64,000 nt of DNA from Tetrahymena thermophila SB210. Its lineage: Eukaryota; Ciliophora; Oligohymenophorea; Hymenostomatida; Tetrahymenidae. Shown here one piece after another: positions 40,869 to 63,288 of the stretch; position 1 is the first letter of the stretch; every line of letters starts with the position of its first letter. The stretch lies in assembly GCF_000189635.1 (NCBI RefSeq), contig NW_002476432.1:434001-498000 (forward strand), written 5' to 3'. Under the pieces are notes generated by a model that saw nothing but the letters and a program-made list of their open reading frames with translations, made no database searches and was not told the origin of the DNA. The translations under genes and the position numbers were made by a program.

Positions 40869-43800
40869 TCAACTGTTATCATTAATATAGTTAATAGCTT
40901 AATCATAATTTCCATTTTTAATACTCTAAATATATTAAATAGTTTTTTAGTGGCTGTCAGTAGCAATATTTATTTTTTTTTCAATGTCTTCATACCTTTA
41001 ATTTTCTTTAACATTTCTTACTTCACTGAGATTATCATAAAGAGACTTTTAATTTTAATTATTTTTCCATTACTAAATTTGATCATCTTACAATCCAAAA
41101 TCTTTTATTAAATCTTTTTGATTTAAGATTAAGTAATATTATCCTTGTTAGCCTTGCCTTGCAGTTCTTCCTTTAATTTAGATTTCTTCTGTTATATTAT
41201 CTGAAAGAAATGTTTAGATGACTACTACACCACCTGATTGAATTACATTAGGATCGAATGAAATAAAATCTGTTCCTCTTCCATACTCTCTAACAAAAAG
41301 TCCTATTTGACCTGATCTAGTCGCTTTTTGAACTTAATGATTAAATTCTGTACTATCATTATGATCAGTAACTTTGATGTAGTTTTCTTTAGGAAGGTAT
41401 AAATAATTGCTGTCATGATAATCTATTAAAGATTAACTATCTTTAAAGAATATAAGCACAGATTATTTTTATTTAATTGCTGAAAATGAGATTTACTGAA
41501 TTTACAAATATTAGTTTTCTTAATCGATTTCTACTTTTACCATATCTCCTTTTCTAAAATCAAGCTTAGAATCTCCAAACATTGAAGGGATGTAAATCTC
41601 TGTTGAGAAGTTATACTTTTTGAGACACTCTTTCATTTGTGAATTTAAAGATTGAAGGGTTCCAGTTACCCCCAAAATAGCTGAATAAGTATCTGGCAAT
41701 AATGCATAAGAAATATGTCCACAATGTAAATTTAATTAAGTTTTTTATTTAAGTGTTTAATCATTTATATTTCCTTTGGAATTTTCAAGGAAATATGCAA
41801 AGAGAGTTAAATAACCATAATAAAATTTAAAATCAATTGTTGAATCGATTTATTTATACCCAATTAAATTATTTCTCACTATATAATCTTTTTAATTTTT
41901 ATGCAATTCTACTTGATTCACATCTTAAGCAAGTTTATTAATATGTCTTTTGAAAAGTCTTTCAAATTTTGGATATTTAATCATTAATTCTTTATAGCTA
42001 GAACTTTATTCAATATTCGTTATAATGCTTGATTTTTATTATCCTTTCGAATTCCAAATTTCTGTAATAATATTTTTTATTTCTTCAACCTCATACTTTA
42101 CTATAGGATTCTAAGTTTATCCATAATAATCAAGATTGAAAAAGATATCTACTTCATCTATTAACAAGATTTTATAATTTGTAGTATTTTATTTTGTGTT
42201 TTTGTTATTATCTAAAGTTTATGAATTTACTATATCTAAGGTAGCTTGCCTAATATTGAAATTATTATTTATGTATTTTTCTACTTATTATCTAAAAGTT
42301 CCATATTTAATTTTTTCAGAAACTCCAAAGGAGATAAAGAGGTTACGAAAGTCTTTATCATCTCTCTCTGAAAGGTAGTTACTATAGCAAACTACATCAA
42401 CCTCACAGCCCAATAAAGCAAGTATTATAGAGCAAAAGCCTAATGTGATTGATTTTCCTTCTCCAGTCAAAATCTCAATCAATTAATTATTCAACTAAAT
42501 TTAGCTTTCATACTAAAATTAATTTTTAACTCCTTACCAAAACCCAGCTTCTTTATGAATTCCTAAAAGCATTATAATGCTAATTATTTGAGTATGGTTT
42601 GGTTTTTTAAAGATATTTTTTTTATCTTACTTTTATTTTCCGCTTTCATTTAGAGTCCAATATGCACAAATTTGAGCAAGCAAATGTAGAATTTCATTCT
42701 TCTATTTTTTGCTATGAAGATTTATTTATTTAGATAATTATCTTACATTGTCTACAATTTCCTCCCATTTATCTTCATCATATTTATATTATTGAATTGT
42801 ATCTTCATATTTTTTTAAGTAAGTATCATAACACTATTTTAGCTATTCCTTTAAATTGCCATCTAAATATTATTTGATTTTTCCACTTTCGCATTATTAC
42901 AATTTGCCAAGAATGTAATTAATGTCATGTCTTCCTACTAATTCGTTAAATTAATCAATCCTATAAGACTTAAACTAAGGTATTTAGTTCACAATTTGAG
43001 CCCCAGAAGCATTTTGTTTGAGAATATTACCTAATTAAAAAACTAATTCTTCTCCCATAGTTTACTTTATGATTACAAAAGCTTCAAATAACTTTACTTC
43101 AACAACATAGCCAAACTTACTCACTTATTCAGAAACTTTTTGAATATTAATTAAAAATTAACTTAATTCTTAGGTTTTCTTAATAGTTGAAAATCTTTTT
43201 ACGAAGATTTTAGATTTCATGATCTAATTTATTATTAAGCTCATTTAAAACTATTTGCATTTAAGGTTAATAAGGATATTTATCTATGCTTTTTAAATAC
43301 TCATCTGCATTATAAATTTTATTAATCAAATCATTCGTCTTTTAGTCATAAGTAAAACTAGCTTTCACTGCTATTAGAGCTTATCCTGTTATTTCATTAA
43401 CCTTTTCCTCAATTTGTTTAAACATCGAACTAATATCAAAGAATTCTATATTAAATAGTTTATTCATTTTATATGATTTAGTTATGCTAAAAATGATTTC
43501 TTTAACTTTTTAGAAGTCGCAATCTGCCAATGCAGCTGTAAAAGCTAACTTGCTGCGATTAAAATGGTCTTTTATAAGATCTATGAGCTTATCGAGGTTC
43601 AAAATTTAAAGACCAATTTCTCTTATTTTTTTAAGTTCATCAGACTAATCAAATAATTAAGGTTAGACCTCTAGGATTTAGTTTAGAACTTAGAATTTTT
43701 TCAAATTATTATATAAGGTTTTATCAACTTACATTTTCTCCTTAATTTATTGTTGAGCATAAAATATTTTTTGTAGTTCTTAGTATACCTTTTGTAAAAT

Positions 43801-46800
43801 ACTTTTAAACATTTAAAAAAGATCTTCTTTAAACTTTATTGACTCTGCTCCTTAAAAATGTTCTTTTTGAATTATTTTTAAAAATTATTGATACTTGAAT
43901 AAATCAATTAAATGTTATTATGTAAATTATCGATCGTTGTTGTTCAGAACAGAATCACATTTATCAAATAGCCTCTATGAATTTGTAAATATACAATTAA
44001 TAAGTTTTTCTCTTAAAGTTTTTTGTTAACTCTTCTACTCATCGTTTAAAAATTTTATTATTATTTCCAAGTTGCTAAAGGCAGTAAAATAATTAAACTA
44101 GAAGCTCGCAATTTCTATTTAGGGGAATTGTTATTCAATTTAATTGACAGCTTACCAAATCACATCAAAAATTTTAAAAATCAATTTATCGAGAAACTAC
44201 TTATTTTTCTCTTAAATATTTTGAAGATATTTAATAGCTTTATCATATTCTCTATTAATCAATAATTTTTAAATTTCTAAATAACTTTTGTTAGATTTTT
44301 GATCTATTTATTTATCTATTTAATCTATTCTTTTTTAAAAATTAAAATTATTCAATTACTCAATATCTTCTGCTTTCTAAGCAAAATCTTTCAAGTATTC
44401 TAAATCAGTCAAAATATCCTTATTTTTTATTTTATTTTTAATACTCTTTTCATATTACTCAAAATCTGAATTAACTTTTTATAAGGAATATGTTATCTCT
44501 TGTTAAAATGTCTCTGAAAAATCTGGATAGAGTTTTTAAGCTTCATTTAGTCTTTAAATCAAATTTAAAAGATACTTTAACTCTTGCTAATCATGAAGAC
44601 TTAAAATAAGCTTTCGAATTACCTCTTTCAAATTCTCAATTTTTGATTGAAAATTCCAATCCTTTAATAGGAAAATTTCATTAAATTCACCCATCAGCTT
44701 TAAGGTTTAGATTAATTATTCATATTGCTTTTCCATTTCTTAAAATTTTAGTAGTTTTATATTTCTGGAAATCTTTTCCTTTTAGTCATTCATGAATTTT
44801 GAGTTAAAGTTATCCATAAAGGAATTTATTTCAACCCTTGATTATTAGTAAAGATTACTCTTATATTTCTAGAATAGCCTTAATATTTATTATAAAACCC
44901 TCAAATTTTTTCGAATATCATCTGAAAAAAAACTATTTTTAACATTAAAGTGATTGTTTACTTGTTATATTTCATATTTGAAATTGTCATATAATTTTAA
45001 AAATGCTTTATCTAAATCTTATTTATTTTAATTGTTTTAAAGCTGATTCAATAATTCTATTTATTAATCTAAACTCTAATAATCTTCATTTTTTATCAAA
45101 TTATCAAGGTTCTTAAATTCTTTTAATATAATCTTTATTGGTGAAGGCAAATTTTAAAATTTCTCCTCTATGAAATCAAATTCCCTTATCCTTAAGCTAT
45201 TGACAAATCTCTAAATTCCCAAATAGCTCCCTTATATTTCTTAAAGGTTATTTTTTTATTCTTTCTTTTAAGTGTAATCCCTAACCATATCATTATAAAC
45301 TTTTTAAATCAAAACAGTAAATTATTCAAAAGTGAGTTATTTGTTTAAGAATGAATTAATATGTTGATATTCTGTAGATATTAATTTAGCTTTTTTAATA
45401 AAATCAGTATAAATTGAGTAATCTTCTTATTTTAAATTTGGGTAAACTTATGGTTTTGCTAAATTCTTAATATTTTAGAAATTTTCATCGAAATTTGTCT
45501 CAATTAATTACTTAATATCATTTAGTTCGGAATCTCCTTGAACATTAGTAATATTGCCTAAAGTCTGAATCTTTAACAAGAGCAATATATTCTAATTTAA
45601 TTTTTCCAAGCAGCCACTATTAAATTAATTTTATCCTTTCAGATTATCAATAAATATTTGTATTTGTTTTATCAACTCTGATACTTTTTTCCTCACTGAA
45701 TCTATGCACATTTGTTTTTGTTCTTCGTAGTTTGTAAGTATATCTTTAAAATCTTTCATACAGCTCATTCTGTATAGGAATTAATTTATTTAGAAAAAAT
45801 TATTATTTTTTATCAAGTTAAAAATATTCTCCTTACACTTCTCAAGATATGTATTTAGATTTCTAATTGTTTTATTTATTCTATTTGATATTAACTTTGT
45901 ACAAAAAATGGCATCTGCCCAAATCATATTACAAAGAAAATTGTATACCTTAAACAATTTATCAAAGTCTTTTTTTTACTTTTATTAAAAGTTTTTTAAT
46001 TCTTCATTATTTGATTTTTTTGATTTAATAAAATAATCATCATCATTTTCATCTTATTTGTTTTCTTCTTGAATTTCCTCTAAATATTAATACAGTATTC
46101 TTTCGGCCTCCTTTGCCTTTTTTTAAATTTTTTCTTTTATTTCACCCATGATTTATCTATATTCGTCAGCAGTTTTGCCTAAAATCAATTCATCTTGATT
46201 TCTAATTTCGTTTATTATTTTTAAGATTTTTTATAGCTTGTACAAATTAGAATCATCTTAAAAATTTTCTTTGATAAAATTAAATATATAGAGATTAAAT
46301 TCTTTTAAATATGAAACAGCATCATTATATAAAATCTCGCAGTCTGGAATATATTCAGAATATTTGCTATTCTAGTTTTATATTTTGAGTATGCTAATTT
46401 CAAAATCTGGTAAAATCTCTATTTTAGGATTAAAGAACAAGATAGAATCATCTACAGAGGGTTATTTCTAGATATCTTCCTTAATATATTAAATTATTTT
46501 CTTTAGATTTGATAATAGCTCTTTATTTTGTTCCAAATTAAACTGAACAACAGCATGGTAGTAATTTTCGTCTTTCTCTAAGATTAAATCGCTAAGAAAT
46601 TCTTCAATATTTTTTATAAAGCCAATTTTTGAAGCTATATTGGTTAAGGTGTCTTTGATTAATTTAATATCTAATTATTCTGGCCTTTTGTAAAATTATT
46701 CAGACAAATCTTTCAAATCTGTTATTTCTAACTGATATTTATCCCTTATTTCTTTTTAGGTTTAATTAAATATTTACTCACCTAAAGAAGTTTAATGTGA

Positions 46801-48106
46801 GAAGTCTTTCAGCTTTTATAGATCAGTCTTCACATTTTCGATGTTTTCAGGGAAATATTTTATTATCCTTTAACTCATCTATAAGCAAACTCCTTCAATC
46901 TCTTATTTGAATCCATCTACGTTTGCGGTAAATTAGCCTTCTTTAAAAACTTCAGCTTAAAATTAACCAATAATTTTTAAATATTCAATAATATCTCGTA
47001 TTTCTTTAATGTTTTAGTGGGAAAATATGTTACTTTTTTCAGAAGCTTCTTGAAAAGCCTCCATAGCCTATTTTTTTTATTCCTCAAAGGTTCTTATAAT
47101 TTCGTCCTATTATTCTTGGTATGAATTTTACAAGTCTTTATCACCTGTATAGTCACTTATTTACTTGAATTCAACCATTCTTTACATGATTTCCATATAA
47201 ATTTCCTTATTATTAAGATTTTACTATATATTTAGTTTCCTCTACATATAATTATAATTTTTATTTTGCGCTTTCTGAAACACTAAAACAGAATTCTTCA
47301 GCAGGATTACTGAAAGATTTATGGCTAATGATCTTTTAACATAATAACTGATGGTTTCTATCAATAGGATTTACAATTATTATTTCTTTATTGTTATTAA
47401 GTTATTGTAAAATAACGTTCAAAAAGCTTTTCATTATTTATGATTGGTAATTATTTTCTTTTTTGATAACATTATCATGAAACTCTAAAATCTCTTTAGT
47501 AATAGCATCAACATTCTTATCTTAAGGAAACTTAGTAAATAGAAATATTATCTTCTCAAATTATTCTTTTTCTGGCTTTTAAAGAATTCTATGTACTAAT
47601 TTAAATACGTCTTCAAATAATTATCCTCTTTGAGCCACTAATTCATGATAGCTTACTAAGATAATCATCTTCATGCTTTTACAATTTTACATAAATTAAT
47701 TTAAAGATTATGCATTAGCAATTTCAATTTCAGCACCACGATTATCAAAAAATCCAGGAGAATCGCACAAAAAATAATTTTCCTGTAAACAAGCTTTTTA
47801 TAGCGTTGAAGTCTCTGACTATTTAGAGTATCCAATTGAAAATTTTCCATTTGAATTAAAAACTTAAGTTTAAATTTTATACGTTTAACCTTCTACTACT
47901 TTACATGTTTCAATATTTTCAATAAACATTTCAGAACCTAAAAGATAGTTAGCAGTAGTACTCTTTCCACTTCCAGTTGGTCCTGCTAATAAAATTATAT
48001 CCTTATCCTTTAATTAGCTTTACTCTTATTAGCATTGCTTGAATAATTCTAACAATTTTTTAATGTCTAAATTCTATTCTCTATTCACTATTTCAGACTT
48101 ATTCAT
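40869..48106 (-). pseudogene. Cassette gene 1A: GTPase-SecA-like giant protein, two frameshifts
   Basis: This is the paralogue of gene 1B at 56041-63288, with the same domain order. ATG is at 48104-48106 and TGA at 40869-40871. The N-terminal GTPase has LLAGPTGSGKSTTANYLLG, the G3-like CDSPGFFDNRG and IIFLFTKFPQDK. A long charged helical middle follows, then the SecA-like motor: IEILTGEGKSITLGF near 42480, LLIDEVDIFF near 42165, VREYGRGTDF and KGRTARQGQQGQYY near 41170-41290. Two disruptions are visible against copy B. Near 47180-47270 a 2-bp deficit shifts the frame just before NRMVEFKQ-type sequence (EIMQRMVEFKQ in this copy). Near 43168-43176 a second 2-bp deficit falls inside NLxELSQFL. 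No TGA was found in the chosen frame of each of the three segments. It may be a decaying copy, or the indels may be errors in AT-rich sequence. Confidence 0.8.
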
Positions 48107-51068: not shown

Positions 51069-52127
51069 TCAGTACATATATTTGTTTGATGCTTTATTTT
51101 GATTATTTTAAGAATTATTTTATACATTCTATTTAAGATTTTTTATGACTTTTTGTTACTATTTAATCTTTTAAGTAATATCAGCTATGCTACTATTGAT
51201 GATTTTATTTTGCAAATCTTTAAGTTTTGGCTATATTTCTTGTTAGATATCTTAAAACTCCTACTTGTATTATGCAGATTATACTTTTTTTTGAGATATT
51301 TCTAAGATTTTTTTTTGCCTATCATCTATTTTACTCTTCATACTTGAAAGCTTATTTTCAACATCGCTCTTTGTGCTTAAACCTTTAAGAATGTTTTGAC
51401 CTTTTCTTTGAGCAGCTTTAAGAGCATTTTAATACTTTTCTTCTGAAATTTCTTCTAAAACAGATTATCTTTTATAGAGGTTTTCTTAATTTTACTTCTT
51501 TTCATTCAATTTCTATTTTTCGTTCTCAACTTTTAATAATGCCTCTTCAAAATCTCCATTAGTAACTAATGCCCCTACTAATGAAACTATCTAACCAGTA
51601 AGAGGGCAAAATACAGTCATTACAACAACTAAAACACTAAAAAAAGAAGACATTTTCTACTTTCTTTCTTCTTCTTTTTACTTAGTCTCACCTATTTTTT
51701 TTTCATTATCTGATAATTCTGAAATGTTCTGATTAGTATCTGAAATATCTGAAAGTAATATTTATTATTCTTAGTTAGCTTTTTCTTTATCACATAAACT
51801 TTCCTAAGCGATTTCGCTTTATTCTTATTACTCCTTCATACTTTACTCTATTTGCTAATTAGCCATACTCAAATTTGAATCTTCTTCTTGTTCAATTTTA
51901 CTTTCTTCATTCAGCTCATTTTCAAGAACGTTTATGAGATCTTCGTACTCTTTTTCCTCATTTTCATATATTTGTTATTCTTTTAAGACCTCTGAAAACT
52001 CTTCTTCTAAAAATCCAAGCATTTTTTCATTGAGCTCTTGAAATGATTTTGCATTTTGATACTCATCTATCAGGACATCTAGCTTTTAATTTTCTTCTTC
52101 CAAGTTTTACTAGTTTTAATTATTCAT
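51069..52127 (-). CDS. Cassette gene 2A: coiled-coil protein with hydrophobic core segment
   Basis: A single open exon encodes 352 residues; its paralogue is gene 2B at 54492-55538. Residues 1-155 are acidic and helical, rich in Glu and Gln (for example FLEEEFSEVLKEQQIYENEE). Residues 159-192 form a hydrophobic stretch, MSSFFSVLVVVMTVFCPLTG followed by IVSLVGALVTNG, which looks like a membrane hairpin or a single crossing. The remainder is a second, basic coiled coil with LKAAQRKGQNILKGLSTK and a Gln/Asn-rich end (MY before TGA). I do not recognise a family. The start is the first ATG, shared with the paralogue (MNNQNQQ versus MNNQDQQ). The gene lies about 3 kb upstream of gene 1A on the same strand. 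Co-duplication with gene 1 suggests a shared role; that is inference. Confidence 0.8.
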
Positions 52128-52375
52128 TTTTGTTAGAATATCAATTTTTTATCTATTTAATATCTTTTTTAATAATTATTTCATTCAGCATTCTACATTT
52201 AGATTTATCAAAATATAAATCTCTTGCCATATGCTTTGAAAATAAATTATTTAGGCTCTTTATTGATTGTGATAAAGATTTATAATAAATAAATATTCTA
52301 ATTGCAAAATATTATCTAAAATAGATCTTTAGCTATTAAATTTAAATTATTTATTAAATATTTTGTCTTATATCA

Positions 52376-52900: not shown

Positions 52901-53825
52901 TCATTATATATATCTTCGTTCCATTTAATTATATTATTTATTGCATATTAGTTTTATGTGTATTATACAATTTTAAATGGTTTCTTATGTGATTTCCTTC
53001 CAAATCTCTTAATTGTTCTAGATTATTTGTTATTTTGTTTGTATATCACTCAAAAGTAATCTTTTTATCCACTTTTTCTTCATTAATCCCCAGATAATCT
53101 CAATAGGATTTAGATCTGGGGACCATCCTGGAAGTTAAATGATCTCTATGCTATTTTCTTAGCAGAATTCTTTAGTAGCTCGCGAAGTATGAGCCCTAGC
53201 ACCATCTTATAGCAATCTAACTTTTCTTCTGTAGTAAAACTTAGCTGATGGAGGAAAGAGTGATTCTTCTAAACAGGTCATATAAGCATCACTATTAATC
53301 GAAGATGAATATACGAATATTTCTGTTCTTCCTCGCATATATATTCCGCTCCAAATATGAATCTATCTGTTGATGTAGGATCTTTCTTTTCTTTCTATCA
53401 CCCAATTATCGTTATTTTTTATCCATATTTTGGCTTTCGTTTCGTCAATCGTGAATATCGTTTCTTCGCTAAACCATATATTGCTGAAATCTGCATCAAT
53501 CCATTTTTAACAGAAGTCCATTCGTGTTTACCTATTATCATTAGTCAATTCATGTACTACTTTGATAGGCTTTTTGGAATAATCTAAGTTCTTCATTATT
53601 GAATAGAGAGTGATCCTTTAGATACATTAATCTTGATCTTTGAAAGTTTTTGTTAAATTGAATCTAAAGATAAGTGAGAGTTCTCTTGTAAAATCGCATC
53701 AATTTCATTATCCATTCTTTCAGAATCTTATTCACACTTTCTGCCACAATTACTAAAGTTATTATTAACATTATTCTATATGGTGTATTTTTACCATATT
53801 TTGATAACTGTCCCTTCACAAAAAT
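52901..53825 (-). mobile_element. Tc1/mariner-type DD34E transposase relic
   Basis: The transposase reads in ciliate code. The DDE core is intact in one frame from about 53600 to TGA 52901-52903. The first Asp is in IFTIDETKAKIWI, the second in RLLQDGARAHTSRATKEF, and the Glu in PGWSPDLNPIEIIWGLMKKK. Exactly 34 residues separate the second Asp from the Glu, the DD34E spacing of the Tc1 group. LPGWSPDLNPIE is the family signature. The N-terminal DNA-binding half is broken: LSKYGKNTPYR, EIDAILQENSHLSLDSIQQK and SIMKNLDYSKKP fall in different frames. I saw no clear terminal inverted repeats. It lies between the two gene 2 copies where a gene 1 copy might have been. It is probably inactive. Confidence 0.85.
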
Positions 53826-54491: not shown

Positions 54492-55538
54492 TCAGTTATT
54501 AGATTTTATTTGACTATTTTGCGAATTTTCTTTAGCATTCAATTTAAGAGTTTTTACAACTTATTGCTACTATTTAATCTTTTAAGCAATATCAGCTAAG
54601 TTAGTGTTTTTGACTTTTTTTTGCAAATCTTAGAGCCTAGGTTATATGTCATTTTATATATCTTAAGACTCTTATTTATATTATGCACATTATGTTTTTT
54701 TTTGAGTGATATCTTAGATTTTGTTAGACGAATCTATCATTTTATTCTTAAGACTTGAAAGCCTATTTTCAACATCCTTCTTTGTATTTAAACCTTTTAG
54801 AATACTTTGACCTTTGCTTTGTGCATTTTTTAGAGCTTTTTAATATTTTTCTTCTGAAATCTCCTCTAAATCAGATTATTTTTAAAATAGGTTTTGTTCA
54901 TTTTACTTTTTTTCATTCCATTTCTATTTTTCTCCTTCAATTTTTTTAAGTGCACCATCAAAATCTCCATTAGTAACTAATTCTCCTACTAATCCAACTA
55001 ATGCACCAGCTATAGGGCAAAAAATAGAGACTATTGCACTTAAAAAACCAAAAAAAGAAGACATTTTCTTTTTTCTTTCCTCTTCTTTTCTCTTAGCCTC
55101 CTATACTTTTTTTTCATTTTCAGATAATTCTTCAATATTCTACTTAGTGTTTTGGATATCTTAAAGTAATTTTTATTTTTCTTAGCTAGCTTTTTCTTAA
55201 TCATTTTTACTTTACTAAGCAACATTAGTTTCATCCTATTCCTCCTTCTTACTTTACTCTATTTGTTAATTAGCCATTTTCAGTTCTTAATTTTCTTCTT
55301 CTTCAATTTTATTTTCTTCGTTCAGCTCATTTTCAAGAGCGTTTATAAGATCTTCGTACTCTTTTTGCTCTTCTAAATATTTTTGTTATTCCTCTAATAC
55401 TTCTGAAAACTCTTTTTCTAAGAATTCAAGCATTTGTTCATTGATCTCTTGAAGTTATTTTGCATCTTAATACTCATTTATGAGGTTATCTAATTTTTAT
55501 TCTTCTTCCTCTATATCTTACTAATCTTAATTATTCAT
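54492..55538 (-). CDS. Cassette gene 2B: coiled-coil protein with hydrophobic core segment
   Basis: A single open exon of 348 residues, clearly homologous over its whole length to gene 2A. The acidic coiled-coil arm (residues 1-155) includes QLQEINEQMLEFLEKEFSEV. The hydrophobic stretch at residues 159-192 reads MSSFFGFLSAIVSIFCPIAG and then ALVGLVGELVTNG. The distal arm has EEISEEKYQKALKNAQSKGQ and LADIAQKIKQQQQVVKTLK. The hydrophobic segment and its flank (SSFF, FCP, LVG, LVTNGDF) are the best conserved part, implying that it matters for function. The stop is TGA 54492-54494. It lies 502 bases downstream of gene 1B on the same strand, close enough for coordinated control but not an operon by ciliate norms. 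No family was recognised. Confidence 0.8.
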
Positions 55539-56040
55539 TTTTTTAGAATATCAATTCAATTTATTTATCTAATTAATATCTTTTTAATTTTTATTAAACT
55601 CTGTCTTTTACTTAATAGAATATAATAATCAATTTCTTTTACGATTTATAATAACCAATTTCTTTTTAGATTTGTTAAAAGTTAATCTTTGATAATAAAA
55701 GAAGATATCAAAATAAAATTCTTTTATTTTTTTCATAAATATTCTAATTGCAAATTTATAATCTAAAGTAGATCTTTCACTTTAATTAACATTACTAAAT
55801 TGAATTATATTACTAATCTTATCATTATCTTTTACAACATAAAGTATTTGATAGCTTTTGATAAAAAAATAATATTGTAGATTATCCATTTTTTTTATAT
55901 CAATAAAAACATAAATTTATTTTTTAATACTATTTATTTGTAAATCTAAAATAAATTTCATAAAAAACTACATATTGCAAATAAAAAGAAAGAACAAAAT
56001 ATATAAATATTTAGGGATTTATAAAAATAATTTGTTTAGT
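55539..56040 (-). pseudogene. Gene X remnant between genes 1B and 2B
   Basis: Between the two cassette genes one frame (about 55940 to TGA 55629-55631) reads NSIKKQIYVFIDIKKMDNLQ, then YYFFIKSYQILYVVKD and SERSTLDYKFAIRIFMKKI. The part around FIDIKKMDN matches the end of gene X next to gene 2A. The upstream part of X seen there (VKDALAF...) is absent here, so this copy is more heavily deleted. It supports X having been a unit of the cassette. Composition is close to noncoding, so confidence is low. Confidence 0.35.
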
Positions 56041-59000
56041 TCAACAGTTATCATTAATATAGCTAATAGCTTAATTGTATTTTTAATTTTTAATATTCTA
56101 AATATATTCAATACTTTTTTAGTGCAAATTAGCAGCTTACATTATATTATTTTCAATATTTGCATACATTTTATTTTCTTTAGCATTTCTTACTTCATTA
56201 AGATTAGCATAAAAAGACTTATTAATTTAATTATTTTTCCATTACTAAATTTGATAATCTTACAATCCAAAATCTTTTATTAAATCTTATTGATTTAAGA
56301 TTAAGTAATATTATCCTTTTTAGCCTTGCCTTGCAGTTCTTCCTTTGATTTGGATTTCTTCTGTTTTGTTATCTGAAAGAAATGTTTAGATGACTACTAC
56401 ACCATCTGAATTATTTACATTAGGATCTAATGAAATAAAATCTGTTCCTCTCCCATATTCTCTAACAAAAAGTCCAATTTGACCTGACCTAGTCACTTTT
56501 TGAATTAAAAAATTAAAATCTTCACTACTTTCATGATCAGTAACTACAATGTACTTTTCTTTAGAAAAGCATAAATAATTGCTTTCATGATATTATAATA
56601 AAGATTAACTATCTTTAAAGAATATGAGCACAGATTATTATTATTTAATTGCTGAGAAAGAGATCTCCTGAATTTTCAAATATTAGTTTTCTAAATCTAT
56701 TTCTACTTTTACCATATCTCCTTCTCTAAAATCTAGCTTGGAATTTCCAAACATTGAAGGGATATAAATTTCTGTTGAGAATTTATACTTTTTGAGACAC
56801 TGTTTCATTTGTTAATTTAAAGATTAAAGAGTACCGGTTACCCCTAATATAGCTGAATAAGTATCTGGTAATAGTGCATAAGAAATATTTCCGCATTCAA
56901 TATTTAATGAAATTTCTTTTTAAAGTGCCTAGTTATCTATATTTCCATTAGAATTTTCAAGGAAATATGCAAAAAGAGTTAAGTAATTATAACATGTACT
57001 GAAAGAAATTGTTGAATCGTTTTATCTATACCCAATTTAATTATTTCTAACTACATAGTTTTTATTTTTTTTATGCTATTATACATTATTCACATCTCCA
57101 GCAAGTTATTTAATATGTCTTTAGAAAAGTTTTTCATATGCTGGATATTTGTTGATTAATTGTTTATAGCTACTACTTTATAAAATATTCGTAATAATGC
57201 TTGATTCTTATTTTCCTCTCTAATTCCAAATTTCCTTAATTATATTTACTATTTCTTAAGTCTAAAAACTTACTGAAGGATTGTAAGTTTTTCCATAATA
57301 ATCTAGATTGAAAAAGATATCTACTTCATCAATTAACAATATTTTATTATTGATAGTATTTTGTAAAGGATTTCTGTTATCATTTTACCTGCTTTAATTT
57401 ATTATATTTAAGGTATTTTGCCTAACATCTAAATAGCTTTCTAGGTATCTTTCTGCTTATTATTTAAAAGTTCCATATTTGATTTTGTCAGAAACTCCAA
57501 ATAAGTTAAAGAGCTTACGAAAGTCTTTATCATCTCTCTCTGAAAGGTAGGAACTATAGCAAACTACATCAACCTCACAACCCAACAAGGCAAGTGTTAA
57601 AGAGCAAAATCCTAATGTGATTGATTTTCCTTCTCCAGTCAAAATCTCAATCAATTAATTTTTAAATTAAATTTAGCTGCCTCTTGAAAAGTAATTTTTA
57701 ACTCCTTGCCATAATCCAATTTCTCTATGAATTCCTAAAAGCATTATAATGCTAATTATTTGAGTATGGTTTGGTTTTTTAAAGATATCTTTTTTGCCTT
57801 ACTTTTATTCTCCGCTATCAATTAGAGTCCAGTACGCACAAATTTGAGCAAGCAAATGTAGAATTGTATTCTTCTCCTCCCATACTTTTTTATTTGGAAG
57901 ATTTATTTATTTAGATAGTAATTTTACACAGTCTACAATTTCTTCCCATTTATTCTTAATGTATTTATATTTATCAATTGTTTATTCATATTTTTTTAAG
58001 TAAGTTTCATAATACTATTTTAGTTCAAGCTTTAATTTAGCATCTAAAGGTTATTTGACTTCTCCTCTTTCAGATTATTACAATTTGTCAAGAATATAAT
58101 TGATGTCATGTTTACCTACTTATTCATTAAATGTATCAATCCTGTAAGAATAAAACTAAGGTATTTTGCTCACAATCTGAGCCCCAGAAGCATCTTGCTT
58201 TAGAATATTACCTAATTCAAATATTACATCTTCTCCCAAAGTTTACATTATGATTTCAAAAGCTTCAAATAACTTTTTATCAACAATTTAAGTGAATTTA
58301 CTCACTTAATCAGAAATTTTTTGTAAGCTAATTAAAAATTGGCTTAATTCTTTTAGGTTTGATTAATACATAAAGCTCTATTTAGGAAGATCAGAGATTT
58401 CTTGATCTAATTTATTAGTAAGCTCTTTTAAAACTATTTAGATTTAAGGTTCATAAGGATATTAATCTATGCTTTTCAAATGCTCATCTGCATTATAAAT
58501 CATATTCATTAAATCATTCATTTTTTAGTCATAAATAATACTAGCTTTCACTATATTTAGTGCTTCTTGCACTATTTGATTAACCTTTTACTCAATTTTT
58601 TTTAGCATGGAATTAATGTCGATGAATTCAGTATTAAATTCTTAATTTATTTAAGAGTATTTCCTTATGCTAAAAATGATCTCTTTAACTCTTTAGAAAT
58701 TGCAATTTTCCAATGCAGTTTAAAAAGCTTAATCGTTGCTTTCAACATTTTTTTAAATTTCCTTTACTAGTTAATCGTCATTCAAAATTTGAAGACCAAT
58801 TTCTTTTATTTTTTTAAGTTCTTCAGATTATTCAAACAATTAAGGTGAGTCCTTTAGGATTTGATTAAGAGCATTGAATTTTTTCCAATTTTTATTTAAG
58901 GCTTGATCAACTTACATTTTCTCTTTAATTAATTGTTGAGCCTATTTTACTTTTAATAGTCCTTCTTTTACTTTAACTAAAATACTTTTAAAAAGATCTT

Positions 59001-62000
59001 ATAAAGGCTTTGCTTACTCTGCTCCTTAAACCGTCTCTCTTTGAATTACTTCAAAAAATGAGTGATGTTTAAATAGATTTATTAAATTTTAATATGTAAA
59101 CGATTGATCATTGTAGATCAGAATTTTATCGCATTCCTCAAAGAACTTCCTTGATTATGTAAATATATGAGTAATAAGTTTAGTAATTGTTGTTTCATGT
59201 TGAAGATACTCATCTTAATTTACAAAGTGTTTTATTATTTTCAGGTTGTTTAAGGCAGTTAAAAAAGTATTCTAGAAGCATGAAACTTCTATAAAGGGGA
59301 ATTGGTCTTTAATTTAATCTGTAGCTTTGGATATCATAATTTACATATTTTTTATTATTCTATCGAAAAACTGCTCATTTGCCTACTTAATTTGTAGAAG
59401 CTGTTTTTTAGCCTAGTCATAATCCTTTTTAACCAATAAATTTTAAATTTCTTAATAATTCTTATTTGATTCTTCATATATTTCTTCTTCAATTTAAAAT
59501 AGTTTAACTTAAAAATCACAATAATTCAATTATTCAATATTTTCTGCTTTCTAAGCAAAATTTTTCAAAACTTTTAAGTCAGTTTTAATAAAGCTATCCT
59601 TATTTTTTATTTTATTTCTAATGCTCGTTTCATAATTATTAAATACTAACTTAATTTCTTATTGGGAATTTTGTAATTCTTGTTAAAATGTCTCTGAAAA
59701 ATCTGAAGGGTGCTTCTAAGCTTCATTTAGTCCTTAAAGCAAATTTAAAAGATATATTAACTCTTTCGAAAGATGATGAAGATTTAAAATAGACTTTGAA
59801 ATTTCCTCTTTTATGTTTTAAATTTCTGAGCTAAAAGTATTCCAATCATCTTATTAGAAAATGTATTTAAATTCACTCAAGCCAGTAAAAGTTTACATTA
59901 ATTATTCGTATTACTATTCCATTTCTTAGAATTTTAGTTGTTTTATTTTACTAAAAATCATTTACTTTTAAGACTTTATGTAATTTTACCTAAAGATATT
60001 CAAAAAAATATTTAATTCATTACGAGATTATTAGTAAAGCTGATTCTTATATTTCTCGAGCACTCTTAATATTTCAGATACAATCTTCAGATTTTTTCTA
60101 ATATTCTCAGAGAAACCTCCATTTTATTTAAAATAAAAATAACTCTTTACTTATTATATTTCATTATAGAGCTTGTCGTATATTTTTTAAAATGATTTAT
60201 CTAAAGCTTATTTATCAGTATCGCTTTTAAGTTGGCTCAATAAGTATATTTCTGAATCTAGGTTCTAAAAATCTTCATTTTTTATCAAATTTTCAAGGTT
60301 CTTAAATACCTACTATATAGTCTCTTTTGGTCTAGGCAAACTTTTAAATTTCTCTTTTAAGAAATCAAATTCACTCATGCTTTAGATAAATCTGTTAATT
60401 CTATCATAGCTCCCTTAAATCTCTTAAAGATTCTCAATATATTCTTTCTTAGAAATGTAATCAGTGACCATCTCATCGTAAACGTTTTAAACCAAAGCCA
60501 TAAGTTATTCAAAAGAGAATCTTTTTAAAAGCGACTTAATATATTGATATTCTATATTTATTAATTTCGCTTGTTTAACAAAATTAGATTAAATTGTGAA
60601 ATCTTCGTCATTTGGGTTAACTTTAGCTCTTGATAAATTCTTTATTAATTGGAAATTTTCTTCAAAATATGTCTAGATTAAACACTTGATTTCAATTAGT
60701 GAAGAATTAGAATCTCCCTTGACATCAGCAATCTTGTCTAAAGTCTCAATCTTAGACAAAAGCAATATATATTAATTTAATTTTTCCCAGCCTTCACTAT
60801 TAAATATATTATCTCCTCTCTTACAACTAATAAATTTTTTTATTTGTTCATTCAACTCTGATACTTTTTTCTTCACTGAATCTACACACATCTGATATTG
60901 TCCTTCATAGTTTTTAACTACATCTTTAAAAACACTAATGCAACTTATTCTTAAAAAGACTTTTTTTATTTAACAGAATTTATCATTTTTGATCAAGTTA
61001 AAAACATTCTACTTGCACTACTCTAAATATTTATTTAACTTTACTTCTAGTTTATTTATGCTAGTTTATGTAAATTTTGTTTAAAAATATTAATCTGTCC
61101 AATGCATATCACTAAGAAAATTGTATGCCTTCAACAACTACTTAAAGTCATTTTATTACTTTAATTTAAAGTTTTTTACTAAATCATTTGATTTTATTGA
61201 ATTAATATCATCTTCATCTTCTTCTTCGTCACAGTTGTTTTCTTCTTCTTCAATTTCCTATAAATATTAATTTAAAATTTTTTTAGCTTCACGAGCCTTT
61301 TTATTAATTTTTTGTTTTATTTCATCCTTGATTTATCTATATTCGTCAGCAGTTTTACCTTAAATCAAATCATCTTGATTTCTGATTTCGTCTAATATTT
61401 TTAAGATATTTTATAGTTTATGCAAATGAAAATCTTCTTAAGAATTTTCTTTGATAAAATTAAATACTTGTTAATTAAATTCTTTTAAATGTAAAAGAGC
61501 TTCATTATATAAAATCTCGCAGTCTGGAATATATTCAGAATATTTGCTATTCTAGTTTTATATTTTGAGTATGCTAATTTCAAAATTTGGCAGGCACTCT
61601 AATTAAGGATTAAAAACAATCTCAGAGTCATCCATAGAGGGTTATTTTTAAATCTCTTCAGTAATATCGGCAATTATTAACTTTAGATTTGATAACAGCC
61701 CATTATTTTTTTGCTTATGTAACTGAACTATAGTTTCGTAAAAATTTTCGCCTTCATTTAAGATAAAAGCTTTGAGGAATTTTTCAATTAATTTTATAAA
61801 GCCAATTTTCTAAGCTATATTGGTTACACTATCTTTGATTGAGTTAACCTCTAATTATTATGTCCTTATGTAAAATCTTTCAGACAATTATTTCAAGTCT
61901 TCTATTTCTAACAAATATTTATCCCTTATTTCATTTTAGGTTTACTTATATATTTACAAACCTAAAGAAGTTTAATCTGAAAAATCTTTTAATTTTTATA

Positions 62001-63288
62001 GATTATTCTTAACATTTTCGATGTTTTAAGGGAAATCTTCAGTTATCCTTTTACTTATCTCAAAGCAAACTTGTTCAATCTCTTATTTGAATTGATTTTC
62101 GCTAGTTTTAAATTAGCCTTATTCAAAAACTTCAGCTTTAAATTCATCAATCATTTATAAATATGAAATAATATCTAGTATTTCTTTAATATTTTGGGAG
62201 GAAAATATGTTGCTTTATTCAGAAGCTTCCTTAAAAGTGTTAAAAGCCTAGTTTTTTTATTTTTCAAAGATTCTTACAATTTCTTTCGATAAATCTTGAT
62301 ATGAATATAACAAAAATTCATTCCCTGTATAGTCCCTTATTTACTTGAATTCAACCATTCTATTCTTTACTTCCATATACTTTCCATATTATTATTATTT
62401 TAATATAATTTTGCTCGTCTCCTCTGTGTATAACTTTATCTATTAATTTGCATTTTCTGAAACACTAAAGCAAAATTCTTCAGCAGGATTACTGAAAGAT
62501 TAATGGCTAAGGATCTTTTAAAGTAATAACCTATGATTTCCATCAGCAGGATTTACAATTACTAAATTACTATTGATTTTAAGTTAATTTAAAATAACTT
62601 TCAAAAAGGTTTTCATTGTAAATGATTCCCTATCTTCTTCTTAGTTTTTCATAATATCAAGAAAATCTAGAATCTTACTATTAATAGTTTTAAAGCTTTT
62701 ATCATTAGGAACCTTAGTAAATAGAAATATTATCTTTTCAAATTACTCTTACTCTGGGTTTTAAAGAATTCTAGTTACAAGTTTAAATATCTCTTAAAAT
62801 AATGCTCCTCTTCGAGCCTCTAATTCAAAAAAGCTTATCAAAACAACCATTTTCACACTATTGCAATTCAACATAAATTACTTTAAAGAATATGCATTAG
62901 CGATTTCGATTTCAGTACCACGATTATCAAAAAATCCAGGAGAATCGCACAAAAAATAATTACCTTGTAAATGAGCTTTTTACAGTGTTGAAGTATGTGA
63001 TTTTCCAGAGTGCCCAATTTCAAATATTCCATTTGAATTAAAAACTTCAGTTTCACTTTAATAGATTTCACCATCTACTTCTTTCTCTATTTCAATCTTT
63101 TCAAAAAACATTTCATAACCTAAAAGATAGTTAGCAGTAGTACTCTTTCCGCTTCCAGTAGGTCCTGCTAATAAGATTATATCCTTATCTTTTAATTCGC
63201 TATAGTCTTATTCGTATTCCTAGAATAATTCTATCAATTTTTTGGCATCTAAATTGTTTTCTCTATTTGATATTTCTGGCTGATTCAT
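56041..63288 (-). CDS. Cassette gene 1B: AIG1/septin-like GTPase fused to SecA-like ATPase
   Basis: ATG (63286-63288) and TGA (56041-56043) are in one frame: 7248 nt, 2415 residues, apparently intronless. The N-terminal GTPase has the P-loop AGPTGSGKSTTANYLLG at residues 41-57, the G3-like LCDSPGFFDNRG and a G4-like FLFTKVPNDK. DSPGF and layout recall AIG1/GIMAP or septin-type GTPases. Residues about 350-1700 are Glu/Lys/Leu/Phe-rich helices with no recognised domain. The C-terminal motor resembles SecA nucleotide-binding domains: EILTGEGKSITLGFCSL at residue 1879 (SecA has MKTGEGKT), then CEVDVVCYSSYLSERD (SecA VHVVTVNDYLARRD). LLIDEVDIFF is at 1987, REYGRGTDF at 2275 and KGRTARQGQQGQYYLI at 2316 (helicase motif VI). 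No signal peptide or SecA zinc tail is seen. SecA moves proteins across membranes; the role here is unknown. TAA/TAG codons throughout exclude bacterial contamination. Confidence 0.88.

Follow-up and report, generated by a model that had tools for sequence, protein, structure and literature searches.

A ciliate protein family joining a TRAFAC-type GTPase to a SecA-like motor, with single-frame counterparts in a few bacterial genomes

The window, as we call the whole stretch of 64,000 nucleotides analysed here (Tetrahymena thermophila SB210, contig NW_002476432.1, positions 434,001 to 498,000 of the forward strand), carries on its minus strand, from 63288 to 56041, a gene that joins an N-terminal GTPase, a long linker and a C-terminal SecA-like motor in a single open reading frame. 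Read with translation table 6, it encodes 2415 residues followed by a TGA stop (2442 amino acids from stop to stop), with 179 TAA or TAG codons read as glutamine. Sixty first-order Markov copies of the window gave longest TGA-only frames averaging 463 codons, with a maximum of 707, so a chance origin of the 2415-codon frame was rejected and the proposal of a first-pass annotation, which gave no strand, that one ciliate-code frame joins the two domains, is confirmed. The same frame is maintained through 2395 aligned codons of the paralogue L022, with an NG86 omega, frame kept, of 0.57 overall and 0.33 for residues 2161-2345; across C116 comparisons, omega ranges from 0.33 to 0.81. The motifs named in that annotation are found as well (Table 1), including DSPGF at residue 115 and YLSERD at residue 1914, with one correction: the last SecA signature reads GRTARQGQKG in the window gene, and the GRTARQGQQG originally given occurs in two C116 paralogues. 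The linker, first put at some 1,300 helical residues, is about 1390 residues long (about 300-1690) and low in proline (0.8-1.4%) and glycine (0.9-1.8%), a composition that makes a helical nature probable.

The C-terminal motor belongs with SecA. In a scan of the whole protein, Pfam SecA_DEAD matches residues 1870-1946 above its cut-off (2.8e-10), and the window protein alone retrieves SecA from the PDB at 3.4e-8, with NBD1 at 1877-1975 and NBD2 at 2260-2343. When the 12 SecA parts of this type in the ciliate genome are combined into a profile, 24 of the 26 PDB sequences matched at E<=0.1 are SecA (best 1.1e-15), the next match being MSS116 at 0.015; SecA_DEAD and P-loop_SecA are detected in 11 and 10 of the 12 members, respectively. 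In hhalign, this profile aligns with that of 10 canonical SecA sequences over 438 columns (99.0%, 6.7e-18, about 18% identity) and with a ciliate group of giant SecA proteins, described below, at 99.65% and 3.7e-25. Both alignments are colinear across NBD1, insert and NBD2, spanning the ~158 residues between DEVD and GVTGTL, and the ATPase motifs are conserved in ciliate and bacterial rows alike. The placement in SecA, as first annotated, is thus upheld by Pfam, PDB and profile comparisons, none of which put the motor outside SecA.

Compared with the SecA translocase (PDB 7xha, 3dl8 and 1m6n), the window protein shares the NBD1-insert-NBD2 order and the TGEGK[ST], DEVD, GxTGT, GRGxD and GR.xRQG motifs, but, besides its low identity, it differs in lying behind a GTPase and a linker and in having only ~70 residues after NBD2. 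For these residues AlphaFold2 (AF2) predicts one long and one short helix at a moderate mean pLDDT (predicted local distance difference test score) of 65, and the long helix may stand for the first helix of the SecA helical scaffold. SecA grips unfolded polypeptide, which its two-helix finger pushes into SecY. Judged by length and prediction, neither a SecA wing domain nor a two-helix finger was found after NBD2, where the chain appears too short for the helical-wing domain, the two-helix finger and the C-terminal tail; such parts could sit elsewhere in the chain. A vWA domain after the SecA core was also not found in the window protein or L022. Because there seems to be no room after NBD2 for the wing domain and the finger, standard SecY-partnered export is unlikely, and the term translocase, as first applied, probably does not hold in the export sense.

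The N-terminal domain is a GTPase, as had been annotated, although the AIG1/septin label then attached to it is loose. Thirteen ciliate copies have in common the P-loop core, S.T and CDxPG, with G42, G45, G47, K48, S49, T50, D115, P117 and G118 invariant. At E<=0.1, Pfam MMR_HSR1 and RsgA_GTPase match all 13 copies, AIG1 six and septin four (best 1.9e-4); an ABC transporter profile matches all 13 too, and therefore much of this signal comes from the P-loop alone. AIG1 reaches 28.8 bits against a cut-off of 27 when the N-terminal 320 amino acids are scanned alone and is not listed in the whole-protein scan. PDB matches include septin-9 (1e-4) and GIMAP7 (7e-4), the septins aligning at the P-loop and weakly at G3. 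The likeness to septin and AIG1 (GIMAP) GTPases thus lies in the P-loop and G3 pattern and in weak profile matches, whereas these matches extend little past the P-loop and the NKxD-type G4 motif was not seen in the 13-copy alignment. Since the AIG1 profile also matches in 12 of 14 control genomes, above cut-off in 8, we describe the domain as apparently TRAFAC-type, septin/AIG1-like in appearance, and assign it to no closer family.

A genome search with the window protein found two other C116 copies and further copies on C31, C15, C127, C112 and C212. GTPase and SecA share one open frame in seven of the 12 copies with a SecA part: the window gene, L022, L026 (C31), L027 (C15), C127b (L030/L031), C127c (L031/L032) and C112a (L033/L034), the last three checked across neighbouring loci. 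Another four (window copy B, L024, L028 and C127a) have their GTPase in a different open frame, upstream and on the same strand, where an intron, a frame change or an assembly error could account for the split; in the twelfth (L034) the contig end cuts the SecA part. A GTPase with no SecA match within the stretch read was seen at L023 and L025. Eight copies end in a vWA domain (C31a, C31b, C15, C127a-c and C112a,b), which was not seen in the window gene, L022 or the C212 copy; window copy B ends at the same point as the window gene. The C212 copy (L028 8702-9739) has a different part after SecA, with no Pfam match at 0.001 and no vWA match. Identity between ciliate subfamilies is 30-36%, and the C127 cluster SecA parts are under stronger constraint (omega 0.22-0.23). 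The second, separate giant SecA group of this genome comprises five loci (C391, C129, two on C9 and one on C112), with SecA_PP_bind above the Pfam cut-off in L035, L036 and L037, below it in L039 and not listed for L038.

The same architecture occurs in bacteria. Fourteen genomes or records with giant SecA genes all match the 12-copy profile at E<=1e-6; 13 do so no better than 2.1e-21, and the other, a gammaproteobacterial metagenome-assembled genome (MAG; 7_bin.57, G012), holds a full window-type match (1.6e-120) in a frame of 1821 codons, with a GTPase upstream in the same frame. At E<=1e-25, the window type was found in 1 of 36 genomes from the order of G012 (G012 itself), in 1 of 343 from the order of a Rickettsia endosymbiont genome (G001; the positive is G115) and in 4 of 232 from the order of a MAG titled Parachlamydiales bacterium (G007), for which a phylum search gave the same 232; among 398 genomes drawn from the phylum of G012, the one positive was again G012, the genome used to choose the set. 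Four of the six positive genomes are Chlamydiota, which are intracellular bacteria. GTPase and SecA share a frame in four of the six, the gammaproteobacterial MAG and three Chlamydiota (G484, 3323 codons; G460, 3010; G453, 1706, cut by the contig end), whereas G434 has them in separate frames and, in G115, the SecA match is split over two frames and no GTPase match was found. The ciliate GTPase profile aligns with the chlamydial GTPase of G484 at 99.7% (3.5e-26, 255 columns), and a vWA domain recurs in one chlamydial protein (L131, genome G460), at 6.7e-27 to that of C127a. For G484 alone, the location of the gene on a 1.12-Mb contig argues against host contamination. The fusion of the first-pass annotation is therefore real in the ciliate, but the bacterial fusions led us to reject one private to eukaryotes, and its description as nuclear, eukaryotic and repurposed covers only part of the case.

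The ciliate GTPase profile also matches 12 times in G460 and 11 times in G484, with a single match in each genome falling in the SecA frame; this GTPase may have expanded there. A pattern search of genome contigs with the 12-copy SecA alignment confirmed none, a limit of the pattern method, since the whole-genome search later found relatives. In viral contigs, no relatives were confirmed with the 12-copy SecA alignment, the 13-copy GTPase alignment or alignment A9, and three with alignment A3. Two IMG/VR contigs (L117 and L118) encode a giant SecA protein of about 3556 amino acids; L118, one of the three found with A3, is probably a chlamydial contig misassigned to viruses, because its SecA gene adjoins a gene matching a Protochlamydia outer-membrane protein. 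Plasmids searched with L120 gave no match. Among phages, one record carries the window motor, annotated as SecA subunit, and 25 carry the giant type, the annotated ones among the 20 listed being named SecA.

With the giant group as query, 76 loci were confirmed in bacteria sampled at one genome per species. The resulting 69-row SecA tree (which omits 16 short or near-duplicate loci, row L034 of the 12-copy alignment, and hits below 70 bits or with spans outside 400-900 residues) gathers 24 ordinary SecA rows, with open frames of 649-1131 amino acids and one of 2509, into one set; the long frame belongs to L084, from an Omnitrophota MAG. The ciliate giant copies fall in another 24-row set with a Rickettsia endosymbiont, Amoebophilaceae, Parachlamydiales, Arcanobacter, a Peranema endosymbiont and others, in which C129 and C391 cluster with two MAGs, one gammaproteobacterial and one of the Parachlamydiales (support 92, not starred); Legionellales together with other Gammaproteobacteria make up a third set. 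The window group forms a set of its own (SH-aLRT, the Shimodaira-Hasegawa-like approximate likelihood ratio test, 100) on a branch so long that its precise position is uncertain. When 10 outgroup rows are added, the window type as a whole is again one set (100/100), and the vWA-bearing G460 groups with seven vWA-bearing ciliate rows (90/87, not starred). Bacterial and ciliate copies interleave in a 17-row tree, with three changes; a single ciliate clade was tested and not rejected (p-AU, the approximately unbiased test, 0.069, 17 rows). The shared fusion suggests that genes were exchanged between protists and intracellular bacteria, once or more and in either direction.

Around the gene, the window holds a second copy whose reading frame changes at two places, so it is either a pseudogene or an assembly error, and a pair of genes for coiled-coil-like proteins (Table 1). 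The pair was found at only two places in the genome, both between the two GTPase-SecA genes, and could encode a membrane partner of GTPase-SecA. A DDE_3 transposase piece at 52904-53698 (-), between the neighbouring copies, might be related to the local duplication. Elsewhere, the product of a CCDC39-like gene of the window shows full identity along 288 residues (8-295) with a chain of PDB 8tek/8tid, entries from Tetrahymena thermophila, and the sole PADLOC match is a P-loop match to mad8 (0.0017).

Table 1. Features of the GTPase-SecA gene and its neighbours, in window coordinates
Feature	Position	Strand	Evidence
Single-frame gene (table 6): GTPase, long linker, SecA-like motor; 2415 aa (amino acids) + TGA stop	56041..63288	-	Open reading frame; frame kept against paralogue L022
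N-terminal TRAFAC-type GTPase, residues 1-300; P-loop GPTGSGKST 42-50, CDSPGF 114-119, FTKVP 190-194	62389..63288	-	Alignment, Pfam, profile
Linker, residues 301-1690, low Pro/Gly, probably helical	58219..62388	-	Composition
SecA-like ATPase core, residues 1840-2345: NBD1, insert at PPXD position, NBD2 (approximate boundaries)	56254..57771	-	Pfam, PDB and profile matches, AF2
Walker A TGEGKS, residues 1884-1889	57622..57639	-	Alignment
Walker B DEVD, residues 1987-1990	57319..57330	-	Alignment
GVTGTL, residues 2149-2154, aligned with SecA GMTGTA motif	56827..56844	-	Alignment, profile comparison
NBD2 motifs GRGTDF (2279) to GRTARQGQKG (2316-2325)	56314..56454	-	Alignment
Long C-terminal helix, residues about 2359-2400	56089..56214	-	AF2, local pLDDT about 57-84
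Second copy (B) of the same gene; frame changes at about 47180-47199 and 43168-43172	40872..48106	-	Homology
Coiled-coil-like protein, one central hydrophobic stretch	54495..55550	-	Sequence
Paralogue of the 54495..55550 gene	51072..52184	-	Homology

Part of this landscape has been described. SecA-domain genes were reported in insects, Daphnia, Tetrahymena and Polysphondylium as a eukaryotic clade apart from bacterial SecA, with transfers to Wolbachia and Amoebophilus, and the SecA half of Wolbachia wBol1_1091 matches eukaryotes including Tetrahymena thermophila, with no close bacterial match (PMC3639933); our guess is that wBol1_1092 belongs to the separate giant SecA group. The eukaryotic association module of phage WO includes SecA (PMC5062602), a SecA DEAD-like Legionella protein is listed among genes of eukaryotic character (PMC4256840) and SecA-like domains are mentioned in actinobacterial toxins (PMC8195603); the whole word SecA was not found in the available text of PMC7203096. 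The relatives in Wolbachia, phage WO and Amoebophilus resemble the window family in having a SecA-like domain in long eukaryotic proteins and in horizontal exchange with intracellular bacteria, but the available portions of these two sources mention no GTPase partner or vWA (PMC3639933, PMC5062602). Effectors of Amoebophilus, a protist endosymbiont, bring together the same two domain kinds, SecA-like and GIMAP-type GTPase, which differ from the window protein in being, as far as that source's available text goes, alternative C-terminal domains and not one fusion (PMC3482391). We found neither a GTPase-SecA nor a GTPase-SecA-vWA protein described in the open-licence literature (preprints lay outside this scope). 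Within that literature, and as far as the portions of it available extend, what is known are the eukaryotic SecA-domain genes that Wolbachia and Amoebophilus also carry.

Taken together, the results show a single frame for both domains, nucleotide-binding motifs kept throughout the family, and an architecture common to the ciliate and a few bacterial genomes. On the basis of these sequences, we tentatively read the window gene, with somewhat less than even confidence, as a member of a giant two-engine NTPase family that would pull polypeptides with ATP under the control of a GTP switch, in interactions between protists and bacteria. Septin- and AIG1-like GTPases use their G domains to assemble, frequently at membranes; by analogy the GTPase may act as a membrane- or complex-assembly switch, and GTP-driven assembly would deliver the SecA-like core to the target. 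With NBD2 on one side and the PPXD-like insert on the other, this core could then grip an unfolded polypeptide and pull it with ATP, and would do so outside SecY because the chain seems too short for the SecA parts that reach into SecY. The GTP-regulated motor of the first-pass annotation, with both domains on one chain and their motifs conserved, is kept, as a polypeptide motor, as the best reading and is still unproven. Less certainly, the setting might be contact with intracellular bacteria, with gene exchange between ciliate and bacteria, serving cell-autonomous defence or symbiont control on the ciliate side and host manipulation on the bacterial side. This setting is proposed because of the distribution, the divergence (linkers barely or not alignable between the window subfamily and others, omega 0.33-0.81 across C116 comparisons) and the copy with two frame changes.

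Other explanations have to be weighed against this polypeptide puller of protist-bacterium contact. The one that survives best, which we nevertheless think unlikely, is housekeeping protein handling in the ciliate, by an unfoldase or extraction factor at the endoplasmic reticulum, mitochondria or secretory organelles, the bacterial copies being incidental captures. The family is multicopy and frame-conserved, the C127 SecA parts are more strongly constrained, and kinship makes the SecA core a polypeptide motor; yet the type is rare in the sampled prokaryote genomes and still present in six, four of them Chlamydiota, and the clustered copies, the copy with frame changes and the poorly conserved linkers have the look of a fast-changing family. 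Less probable again is that the ciliate genes were acquired from intracellular bacteria and have no settled function, as selfish or decaying copies. Such an origin would fit the divergence, the highest omega values, the frame-changed copy, the bacterial rows that sit among ciliate rows in trees and the giant-type rows C129 and C391 inside a mostly bacterial set, but it accords poorly with long intact frames, the many TAA/TAG glutamine codons of the window gene, the deep splits among ciliate copies and the conserved catalytic motifs. A nucleic-acid helicase or translocase, resembling SecA merely through a shared superfamily-2 ATPase origin, is improbable: some members have weak DEAD and Helicase_C matches, and MSS116 appears in the PDB profile search, but the PDB matches to SecA are many orders of magnitude stronger than those to other helicases, SecA Pfam families are found in 10-11 of the 12 members, and three of the five loci of the related giant group have SecA_PP_bind above cut-off; the general helicase was rejected. 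That two neighbouring genes were joined by chance or misassembly can be dismissed almost outright, as the frame is uninterrupted here and six further ciliate copies and four bacterial genomes have the same order within a single frame.

Several points weigh against the polypeptide-pulling reading itself and its setting. SecA_PP_bind (PPXD) is not among the Pfam families listed for the 12 ciliate members, the insert at the PPXD position is poorly predicted by AF2 (pLDDT about 31-40), and an AF2 model of the GTPase from two sequences is useless (pLDDT 36). Some omega comparisons are as high as 0.81, a value to be read with the caveat that omega is probably inflated by AT bias. Linker similarity within the ciliate is at best 0.007 (window gene against L026), and between ciliate and bacterial linkers the best E is 0.024, against 0.45 for the best shuffled sequence, with no hit by hidden Markov model, so homology of the linkers is not claimed. 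The fused GTPase of G460 is the second weakest of the 12 GTPase matches in that genome; for this reason, and because the linkers barely match, the fusion could have formed more than once. Furthermore, the conflict setting rests on distribution, and the bacterial orders were picked for carrying related giant SecA proteins, which biases the sampling. In the larger genome searches scoring was confined to the 2-4 best candidates of each genome, which makes absences soft, and the lack of any positive at E<=1e-25 among 390 genomes drawn from the order of an Amoebophilaceae MAG (G004) shows nothing.

SecA is regarded as the export motor of bacteria and plastids. In this ciliate nuclear genome, the SecA core has expanded to a multigene family in which it is coupled to a second NTPase; a few bacterial genomes, including three Chlamydiota, have this rare architecture too. 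A broader proposal, which we consider doubtful and less secure than the reading of the window gene, is that GTPase-SecA(-vWA) proteins may form a distinct class of SecY-free, GTP-switched polypeptide pullers arising from protist-intracellular bacterium traffic, with which the ciliate might strip or extract proteins from bacteria or vacuoles and bacteria might act on host proteins. Tetrahymena would offer a tractable model for SecA motors without SecY, and the family a concrete candidate for a conflict machine exchanged between host and symbiont.

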